Origin: a virus
Length of the DNA stretch: 32,769 nucleotides
Direction: 5' to 3' (one strand)
IMG/VR virus record: IMGVR_UViG_3300027659_000124
Coordinates: 1-32,769 of that record
Program-made: the position numbers and the translations under genes
Notes under the pieces: generated by a model
Databases searched by the model: none
Told to the model about the DNA's origin: nothing
What the model saw: the letters and a program-made list of their open reading frames with translations, nothing else
Shown: positions 1-12,423 of the stretch, in pieces
Numbering within the stretch: position 1 is the stretch's first letter
Layout of the letters: each line of letters begins with the position of its first letter

Positions 1-114
1 TGTGACGTCATTGACACAAACTATAATTACAAAATTGGAACTAGAGTCGATCAAACATATCCATACGAAAATCGCGTTGAGGCATTCATAGAATTTGTAT
101 TACAGAAGCGTTAG
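1..114 (+). CDS. 3' end of an unidentified gene (partial)
   Basis: The first frame of the window is open from base 1 to a TAG at 112-114, giving the last 37 residues of a protein that starts outside the window. The residues include the stretch YENRVEAFIEFVLQKR at the end, a mixed charged and hydrophobic sequence typical of a folded domain. The family is not recognisable from so short a tail. Its place just before the capsid gene suggests a head-assembly protein such as a portal or scaffold, but this is inference from position only. Confidence 0.55.
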   Translation, partial: CDVIDTNYNYKIGTRVDQTYPYENRVEAFIEFVLQKR

Positions 115-123
115 ATATATAAT
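95..123 (+). promoter_or_regulatory. candidate sigma70-like promoter overlapping the stop of the first gene
   Basis: TTGTAT at 95-100 and a perfect TATAAT at 118-123 are separated by exactly 17 bases. The -10 box is strong, while the -35 box matches only its first three bases. It would start a + strand transcript near 130, running through the region opposite the candidate minus-strand RNA and possibly on to the capsid gene. No experimental support can be read from the sequence. Confidence 0.3.
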
Positions 124-480
124 GCTTACTTGGTGGTGAGTTCGGTGCATAGCAGATCCCACATAATGGGATACTGCTAAAAATACACGATGCTTTCTCG
201 TATGGAGCCGTTCGTATGCTTTTATGAATCACTCGGCCAGAGGTCGTCCTTTGCCTAGCCTTACTTTAGTTTACACCTTTCGGTGAGAGCCAGTTTGATT
301 CGCAGACCTCTTCCTTTCGGAAGAAGCTATTAAGTTGGTAGTCTGTTACCCCTCCCAACGCCTCTCCTTCACACGGGAGTCCTTTTCAGGTTTGTTCCGC
401 AGTCATGGGATAGAACCATGCCGTGCTACGCTCATCTTATTTTAGGGCTACTCTTGGGAACTGCCGTTAGGCTTCATACA
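121..480 (-). ncRNA. candidate structured non-coding RNA, family not recognised
   Basis: This stretch has no convincing reading frame but is rich in inverted repeats. Read on the minus strand, two helices close on GAAA (GNRA) tetraloops: one at 306-327 (about 9 bp) and one at 274-285 (4 bp). Other helices are 151-178 (10 bp with one bulged base), 404-420 (CATGG/CCATG), 352-356 with 375-379, 337-350, and 240-245 with 305-310 closing a multiloop around the 274-285 hairpin. A 5-bp pairing of 139-143 with 458-462 could close the whole domain. The minus strand is purine-rich with more A than U and more G than C, as in large structured RNAs and opposite to the flanking genes. Two loops are A-rich on the + strand instead, so strand is likely but not certain. 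Neither group I nor group II intron core signatures were found, and tmRNA and RNase P consensus ends are absent. Confidence 0.5.
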
Positions 481-523
481 AAAGGAAAAACCCGCCTTGA
501 TATTCACAGTATCGAGACGGGTT
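481..523 (-). terminator. rho-independent terminator, stronger on the minus strand
   Basis: AACCCG (489-494) pairs with CGGGTT (518-523), and TTGATA (497-502) pairs with TATCGA (510-515), around a 7-base loop. On the minus strand the stem is followed by TTTTTCCTTT, a good U-tract. On the + strand it is followed only by ATTTTGC. It may act in both directions. On the minus strand it would stop transcripts coming from about 580, upstream of the candidate RNA, so it could instead be the RNA's 5' domain. Confidence 0.6.
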
Positions 524-583
524 ATTTTGCTGGAGAGTAAAATTGTTTCGCCTGAATCCTGTGAAAATTCAAGTAAGATGTTA

Positions 584-614
584 GAAATATTGCATTTTTT
601 TTTTAACAGGTCAA
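584..614 (-). promoter_or_regulatory. weak candidate minus-strand promoter
   Basis: On the minus strand TTGACC (complement of 609-614) is followed 17-19 bases later by AATATT or TATTTC (complement of 584-591), with an A10 run in the spacer. It would give a transcript leftward from about 578 into the terminator hairpin and the candidate structured RNA. The -10 match is poor. Confidence 0.2.
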
Positions 615-667: not shown

Positions 668-731
668 GTTGACATATTCGTTAATATATCGCAGTTCTGA
701 ATTCACTTCGGCAGGTAGGTTCCGTATACCT

Positions 732-824
732 ATGACTCCGTGGAAGTCACAGAATCCACAAACAGGCCGTATCAACAAGCCCAACGTGCCGGGGCGAACA
801 AACAAGAAACAAGCAATGGAATAG
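732..824 (+). CDS. possible 30-aa basic peptide
   Basis: ATG at 732 opens a 30-codon frame ending at TAG 822-824. The product starts MTPWKSQNPQTGR and is rich in Lys, Arg, Asn and Gln. Codons use C and G in third positions more than most of the window, as in the capsid gene that follows. There is no family recognition and no clear Shine-Dalgarno. The frame also stays open upstream to 615, but that part is encoded by the T-tracts and looks non-coding. It could equally be chance. Confidence 0.2.
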   Translation: MTPWKSQNPQTGRINKPNVPGRTNKKQAME

Positions 825-924
825 CATATGCTTTTCTATGCACTTGAATGTCGCCCAATAGATTTTTCTAAAGGGTCGGTTCAAGCAGAACAAACCTAAA
901 CAAACAAAGTAGAAAACTAAAATC

Positions 925-2477: not shown

Positions 2478-6102
<3,625 letters not shown>

Positions 6103-10896: not shown

Positions 10897-12423
10897 ATGA
10901 GTTGCTACGATGAATGCGTTCCAGATTATCCTGTTTGTGATTGTGTTGACACCAGAGGTGCTACTGGAGCTACAGGCGTAGGATTTGTAGGAGCCACTGG
11001 TCTTACAGGAGCAACTGGTGCTGGAGCAACTGGCGCAAGCGGATCTGGCGCAACTGGAGCCACTGGCCCAGCTGGAATTGGAGTACAGGGAGCAATGGGG
11101 CCACAAGGAATACAAGGGCCACAAGGACAGGCTGGAACAAATGGTTCAACTGGAGCTACTGGAACAGAGGGAGCCACAGGAGCTACTGGTTATGGGGCAA
11201 CTGGCCCAGCTGGAACGTCTCCAGTATTAACTCGTCAAAGTTCTACAACCTTCCCTATTCAAGTAGGAACAAAAACATTTTTTTATACATCAGCAGATGT
11301 TGGATGGACTTATGGATCACGCATTCGCATTGTTGCTAATTCTGCATATCCTTTTGATTGGATGGAAGGCAATATCATTAATGTTGCTTCTAATTTTGTA
11401 ACCGTATATGTTGATAAAACTCAAGGTTCTGGAACATTTTCAGACTGGGTTATTGCATTAACTGGAGATGGAGGCATTGGAGCAACTGGTGCTAGTGGAG
11501 TTCAAGGTGCAACTGGTTCAACTGGGCCAGCAGGATCTACTGGAGCTGGAACTACTGGAGCAACTGGAGTTGATGGGCCAACAGGGCCACAGGGAGCAAC
11601 TGGAATTACTGGAGCCACTGGATCTGGAGCGACTGGAGCGACTGGAACTATTTTAAATTTTATTGGAGAATGGACAAGTGGATCATATGCAGCTAATACA
11701 GTTGCTGTTTCTCCAATTGATAGAAACACATATATTAGTCTAGTTGTAACATCAAATGTTAATATAGACCCCTCTTCTGATCCAACCGAATGGGAAATAT
11801 ATTCATATGGAGGCGCAACTGGAGCCACGGGATTAACTGGAGCCACTGGAGCTGGAATTACACTTAAAGGTACAGTTGCAGATATTGTAGATTTACCTCA
11901 AGTTGACAATGTAGTTGGAGATATTTATATTGTAACAAATGAAGATGGACATGGGTATATTTGGGATGGATCTTCTTGGAACGATGTTGGCCCAATTCAA
12001 GGGCCACAAGGGCCACAAGGTGCAACTGGAATACATGGATCTACTGGCATTGAAGGAGCAACTGGCGCAACTGGTTCTGGAGAAACTGGAGCAACTGGTT
12101 TAACTGGCATTGAAGGAGCAACTGGCATTGAAGGAGCAACTGGGCCACAAGGCGCAACTGGGTTACAAGGAGCTACTGGAGTTACGCCCCCATCAAATGC
12201 AGGAAATATTTGGACATTTACAGGGGATGGATCAACATTAACTTGGTCATTAACAGGAAATACATCTGGTAGTATTGTTTCTGCAAATTATTTAGCATCA
12301 ATTGATGGCATTTTACAATCTCCATTAAACTATACAATCAACAATGTTTCACCAAGAACACTAACAATTTCAACTGTTCCATCTGGAAGTTTCCTTGTTG
12401 TTGTATCTCTTTCTACAGCTTAA
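10897..12423 (+). CDS. second collagen-like fibre protein with carbohydrate-binding-like modules
   Basis: A 508-aa fibre. Its N-terminus is rich in cysteine ([16 protein letters not shown]: five Cys in 16 residues). Gly-X-Y blocks (mostly GAT) at about 22-108, 190-248, 303-318 and 365-430 alternate with small beta domains. One at about 249-302 ([17 protein letters not shown], later PTEWEIY) resembles CBM5/12-type carbohydrate-binding modules. Another (about 319-365) contains [20 protein letters not shown], a pattern common in phage fibres. The C-terminal domain ([13 protein letters not shown]) matches the domain at residues 533-603 of the first collagen gene. It probably forms a trimeric appendage. 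Confidence 0.8.
12041..12107 (+). repeat. second copy of the 67-bp collagen segment
   Basis: Matches 3224-3290 at 66 of 67 bases. Further shorter identical segments (for example around GATGGGCCAACAGGGCCACA) are also shared by the two fibre genes. Confidence 0.85.

Follow-up and report, generated by a model that had tools for sequence, protein, structure and literature searches.

The window analyzed here is the whole stretch of 32,769 nucleotides (nt) of IMG/VR virus record IMGVR_UViG_3300027659_000124 (positions 1-32,769), and coordinates given without a locus name are window positions in plus-strand numbering. Beside its capsid gene, the window contains a block (121-480) that was originally predicted to lack genes and to encode, on the minus strand, a candidate large structured RNA, plausibly a new member of the GOLLD/ROOL kind or a new class. 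We found no credible gene on either strand of this block, and the RNA is supported by covariation among relatives, a check proposed with the original prediction, by a conserved promoter, and by an Rfam search that gave no family (for the block, no match at gathering scores or at E ≤ 10, with weak chance matches in the flank only). In these comparisons, none of the outcomes named in advance as contrary to the prediction was seen. The block itself was drawn too small, as the element overruns both ends and extends from ~579 to ~112. A search of IMG/VR with the capsid protein gave 80 loci, to which pattern scans added loci at other genomic places. A structured RNA with its own promoter was found in about 45 related phage loci, all in uncultivated phages, and it extends the short list of large structured RNA families described from phages.

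Promoter, strand, and conserved fold

We place the start of the RNA near 579, about 100 bases ahead of the block, because a sigma-70-like promoter is located at 614-586 on the minus strand (-35 box at 614-609; -10 box at 591-586); the predicted RNA is about 465 bases long. Promoter-like boxes lie at a near-constant distance of 81-99 nt before the leader hairpin H2 in 37 of the 38 leaders tested, and the sole leader without a match (L114) is situated at a contig end. The TTGAC box is present in 36 of these 38 leaders, with L126 carrying GTTGCG instead. Since the match in the window, taken alone, is no better than those that shuffled sequences give, the evidence for this promoter is its conservation across leaders.

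A comparison of folding energies with those of shuffled sequences, likewise proposed at the outset, gave an unremarkable z of -1.65 for the minus strand and a better z of -3.0 for the plus strand; therefore, energy alone could not support the minus strand. In the leader, 98 G-U pairs versus 17 A-C mismatches are counted if the minus strand is read, and 16 versus 47 if the plus strand is read, while the same comparison on the type 2 body described below did not separate the strands. Based on the conserved minus-strand promoter and the leader counts, we assign the RNA to the minus strand, which, as judged from these sequence comparisons, almost certainly encodes a structured RNA.

Three dissimilar body types, one per locus, lie behind the same leader. 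For type 1, the body type of the window, RNAalifold gave 77 pairs in 14 sequences, of which 20 have double (compensatory) changes; 97.4% of cells are paired, 0 of 500 shuffles reached this level of covariation, and the paired fraction dropped to 33-46% when partners were slid by 1-3 columns. For type 2 (18 sequences), 30 of 62 pairs have double changes. Because each structure was predicted from the very alignment used for its counts, the weight rests on the shuffles and the double changes and not on the raw paired percentage. Two hairpins with GAAA tetraloops, recognized in the original prediction, are kept in relatives, and their loops are constant on the minus strand while the stems vary. 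The pairing of 139-143 with 458-462 that was thought to close the domain is not conserved, and the conserved closing helix is the one listed in Table 1. In L107 (3569-3845), a type 2 RNA is truncated, with X1 and the 3' hairpin missing, and is joined to the upstream gene region.

Table 1. Features of the predicted RNA in the window and endonuclease-like open reading frames (ORFs) at related loci
Feature	Position	Strand	Basis or remark
Whole predicted RNA	112-579	-	Placed by the promoter and the conserved extent; both ends approximate
Sigma-70-like promoter, TTGACC - 17 - AATATT, TG before -10	586-614	-	Conservation in leaders
Leader hairpin H1, loop TTCACAG (plus 559-565)	552-572	-	Comparison of leaders
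Leader hairpin H2, loop CTGTGAA (pairing bases plus 503-509), complementary to H1 loop	491-521	-	23 leaders
P1 region CTTTTGTATGAAGCC..GGCAGTTCCCAAGAG	441-485	-	Common to all three body types
Domain-closing helix	5' strand 470-479; 3' strand 200-209	-	Helix 1; 92.9% paired, one pair with double change
Hairpin with 7-nt T-loop-like loop UUCUAUC (UUCAAUC in L124)	404-420	-	Helix 4; stem covaries
GAAA-loop hairpin	310-323	-	Helix 8; 6 of 7 pairs with double changes
GAAA-loop hairpin CACC-GAAA-GGUG	274-285	-	Helix 11
X1, purine-led variable segment (GAAAGCATCGTGTA...) after closing helix	177-197	-	Repeated as X2
3' hairpin between X1 and X2	151-178	-	Helix 14
X2, same-sense repeat of X1 at element 3' end	114-129	-	Abuts TAG stop of upstream plus-strand gene
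HNH-like or NUMOD3 endonuclease ORFs	L108:2134-2754; L011:2216-2764; L079:2880-3593; L114:7749-8501	+; -; -; -	Next to or instead of RNA

Leader loops, exchangeable bodies, and the repeat X1/X2

The loops of the leader hairpins H1 and H2 are perfectly complementary ("kissing loops") in 23 of the 23 different leader pairs checked, among them TTCACAG/CTGTGAA in the window and, elsewhere, GAAACAG/CTGTTTC, GTAGCCA/TGGCTAC, GACGAG/CTCGTC, and AACGCAAGA/TCTTGCGTT, and loop pairs from the same leader beat mixed pairs (permutation p = 5e-5). H2 resembles a terminator in the window and at most loci; since it has no U-run in L124-L126 and the loop pairing is still kept there, we read H2 as part of the RNA. 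In L011, the same leader and loop pairing (GTCGTGGG/CCCACGAC) precede an HNH-like ORF, and in L079 the loop match is shorter, about 5 bases as judged by eye.

The leader and flanks of L108 and L118, in the latter of which pattern scans revealed the third body type, are 94-96% alike, while the bodies are almost wholly different, and the types of body seem to be alternatives for a single locus. An HNH-like ORF takes the place of the RNA body behind the leader in L011 and L079. Such an ORF also follows the RNA immediately in L108 and L122, and a NUMOD3 homing-type ORF lies downstream of it in L114; the HNH matches score below the Pfam cut-off. We rejected an extension of the HNH frame back to X1 in L108, as it is an open frame only and is not conserved at other loci. 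Next to the cassette, on its flank toward the upstream gene, L012 (2951-2987) and L013 (3099-3135) carry an Rfam abiF RNA (44.5 bits, above the gathering score), which in L012 is followed by a short ORF and which is possibly a phage-carried mimic of an antitoxin RNA.

X2 is located 63-81 nt downstream of X1, with the 3' hairpin between the two. In a comparison of 31 loci, X1 was closer to the X2 of the same locus than to the X2 segments of other loci (permutation p ≤ 5e-5 for all loci together and for types 1 and 2 taken separately), and in L016 the two are identical at 16 of 16 positions. Because they have the same sense, X1 and X2 cannot pair together. No third copy was found in the nine loci searched and no complementary partner inside the RNA, and DNA or protein is, therefore, the likely partner: X1 could anneal to the DNA strand that is the complement of X2, or one protein could bind both. 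We considered and rejected a third strand as a shared pairing partner of X1 and X2 (no extra copy, equal own-versus-other complementarity, and duplex energies with p of 0.27-0.91). The window, L005, and L090 have the same RNA and the first part of X2 amid different flanks; X2 is thus mostly element and not target, and we discarded on the same grounds the idea that X1 is a guide copied from flanking DNA. Two distant members, L124 and L126, have a further conserved stretch (GCGAGCGAGCAGTTAACA..CTxGTTAC.GATTGCAGAGCGGAAAGTCTGGATTG) downstream of X2.

Genomic places and the link to a DnaB-type helicase

Upstream of the capsid gene, the type 1 RNA is found in L005, L006, L007, L010, L013, and L054, a type 2 RNA in L003, L009, L012, L016, L017, L019, L042, L055, L062, L063, and L064, and a minus-strand HNH-like ORF in L011 and L079. 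The same region holds no such element in L031, L045, L048, L049, L051, and L053, and no RNA in the close capsid relatives L001 and L002. Other places of the RNA include sites next to a dCMP deaminase gene, close to a DnaB gene, and at a switch in gene direction (L086, L087, L108, L110, L111, and L117), and the upstream gene differs between loci with the same RNA. Thus, the position next to the capsid gene, correctly noted for the window, is incidental: in other phages the same RNA lies elsewhere, and it follows the DnaB replication module. Neither the RNA nor the capsid protein had a match in named phages, and no RNA was found in GTDB genomes. A single pattern match in a G+C-rich contig of a Coriobacteriia bin was dismissed as chance, the rest of the RNA being absent.

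In 50 phage records, a covariance model of the leader had a convincing match in 25, always at one place, and a marginal match (E 0.07) in a 26th, G028. The exception is G042, with one match at each contig end, one of type 1 and one of type 2. We do not take this as evidence of two copies per genome, as the contig ends are linked only by alignments of 132 and 165 bases, and G042 may have a single locus that exists as two alleles.

When 20 records were profiled, a DnaB-like helicase turned out to be confined to the RNA-bearing ones, as did two small protein families. Using Pfam on the 50 records, we found DnaB_C, among those of at least 55 kb, in 11 of 11 with the RNA and in 0 of 19 without it; the RNA-bearing records without DnaB (G003, G005, G030, G038, G047, and G048) are all shorter than 55 kb and incomplete. 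Because the 19 RNA-less records have the same capsid family yet no DnaB, the RNA goes with the replication module and not with the capsid. Window-type virion genes also occur in records without the RNA, and those of the second RNA-bearing group are for the most part different, so that the link between RNA and helicase crosses virion types. A family A DNA polymerase was not matched in any RNA-bearing record.

Candidate roles and neighboring features

In ColE1 RNA II, an internal G-rich loop helps the 3' part hold the template. RNA II is transcribed from a promoter 550 bp from the origin, and replication starts with no plasmid initiator, by an R-loop and then helicase loading (PMC5043065). We rank first, at a probability of roughly 0.3, an RNA II-like role in replication initiation, because it would account for the helicase link, for the RNA's own promoter at a similar distance, and for the internal copy of the 3' end. 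The likeness is one of described features, with no sequence relation claimed. Like RNA II, the RNA has a long structured transcript and a promoter of its own, which lies about 500 nt from the site at which the RNA is proposed to act; unlike RNA II, it is found in phages, no antisense RNA I was seen, and an origin role is only proposed. In such a mechanism, the folded transcript would present the purine-led X1, and once RNA polymerase reaches X2, 63-81 nt later, X1 would pair with the template strand there and hold an R-loop open, which could yield a primer or give the phage DnaB helicase a place to enter. Activity or specificity might be set by the kissing-loop leader and by the alleles of the body. 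We consider doubtful the fuller model of a double-stranded DNA phage origin started by a dedicated, allelic RNA with its own promoter, in which the X1 copy opens the origin at X2, the kissing-loop leader sets specificity, and the cores are exchangeable. If the role in replication holds, the priming of phage origins by a dedicated folded RNA would be open to direct tests.

Several observations weigh against a role in replication. GC skew indicates no consistent origin at the RNA, with a minimum nearby in one record and maxima in others. Differences between X1 and X2, at 2-5 positions, are frequent. In L011 and L079, the leader is accompanied by an HNH-like ORF and by no RNA body, and no RNA was found in G001, in which DnaB is present, although all three are fragments and a further copy could lie beyond them. 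The Fisher p of 1.8e-8 for the link between RNA and DnaB is descriptive only, as the records are not independent and shared descent inflates such statistics. Finally, the transcript, the R-loop, and the origin are all predictions.

It is also possible, if less readily so, that the RNA forms a homo-oligomer like ROOL and GOLLD, with H1 and H2 loops pairing between molecules to build a ring or cage. In ROOL and GOLLD, likewise phage RNAs, kissing loops join separate molecules, some of these loops covary, and a GAAA loop is conserved in GOLLD (PMC12286853). The present RNA resembles them in being phage-encoded, large, and ornate, with no ORF, with GNRA loops, and with loop-loop pairing, and both the complementarity kept through 23 sequences and the lack of a protein partner alongside at most loci are in agreement with self-assembly. 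However, the H1 and H2 loops, separated by 40-56 nt, are near enough to pair within one molecule, the RNA is about 465 nt long versus ~600 to 800 and more, it is not beside transfer RNA islands at the loci read, and the GOLLD and ROOL covariance models matched neither the window at E ≤ 10 nor the relatives at E ≤ 1. Moreover, oligomerization leaves X1/X2 and the DnaB link unexplained. In contrast to what is reported for GOLLD and ROOL, the RNA has a genetic link to one helicase type and natural swaps of bodies behind a constant leader, and its covarying repeat X1/X2, not reported for either, could point to DNA pairing.

We regard as rather unlikely a selfish homing cassette, in which the leader with an RNA body and/or an endonuclease gene would spread among phages and X1/X2 would reflect insertion or site recognition. 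The HNH-like and NUMOD3 ORFs that adjoin the RNA (L108, L122, and L114) or replace its body (L011 and L079) and the several insertion places fit such spread, but most loci have no endonuclease, no record has two clearly separate loci, the HNH matches are sub-threshold, and X2 is mostly element and not target. The omega RNA (HEARO) of IscB-IsrB is similar in that an HNH-type ORF is nearby at some loci and in its mobile look; here, however, neighboring ORFs gave only HNH-like or NUMOD3 matches, are small, and are missing at most loci, no 5' guide was seen, and the Rfam HEARO model gave no match. Neither did the Rfam models for group I and group II introns. As for IS110 bridge RNA, which goes with an adjacent DEDD recombinase and has guides matching both flanks, no recombinase was recognized by eye among neighboring ORFs, no family search having been run, and X1 relates to one end only.

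An accessory RNA directed at host defenses or other phages, acting as a decoy or antitoxin or in superinfection exclusion and with its specificities given by the body alleles, is unlikely. It would suit the swapping of dissimilar bodies behind near-identical leaders and flanks (L108 versus L118), the abiF RNA adjoining the cassette in L012 and L013, and the absence of the RNA upstream of the capsid gene in L001 and L002, but not the strict link with one helicase type, and the bodies have no Rfam similarity to a known defense RNA. The phi29 packaging RNA has two complementary loops, which vary between phages. The present RNA shares this property but is larger, is tied to the helicase and not to virion genes, and is missing from many phages of the same capsid family; we rejected a phi29-type function, which would serve DNA packaging and so accompany the virion genes, as the element is absent both from the 19 large records that share the capsid family and from the region ahead of the capsid gene in L001 and L002. 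A plus-strand 3' untranslated region RNA or attenuator of upstream genes, ending at the hairpin at 491-521, is highly improbable, for although the plus strand folds with a z of -3.0 and this hairpin could terminate plus-strand transcripts, the minus-strand promoter is conserved in 37 of 38 leaders, the GNRA loops and the leader G-U pattern favor the minus strand, and the same RNA follows different upstream genes at different loci.

Other features lie nearby or in related records. The 5' leader of the capsid gene (700-924, plus strand) is conserved in relatives (CTTCGGCAGG...CCGTATACC...GTGCCGG; nine sequences aligned) and contains hairpins with changing stems, and it is a possible second structured RNA. 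In L159 (52-1575; G029:51052-52575), an ORF with an LIGWIVTDGSF motif lies beside genes conserved in all records and looks, by eye, intein-like or homing-endonuclease-like; the same record has a GIY-YIG-like ORF (G029:56400-57101). Two regions of the window (2482-6102 and 10897-12423) encode very long collagen-like proteins with a G-A-T repeat, which are probably virion fibers.
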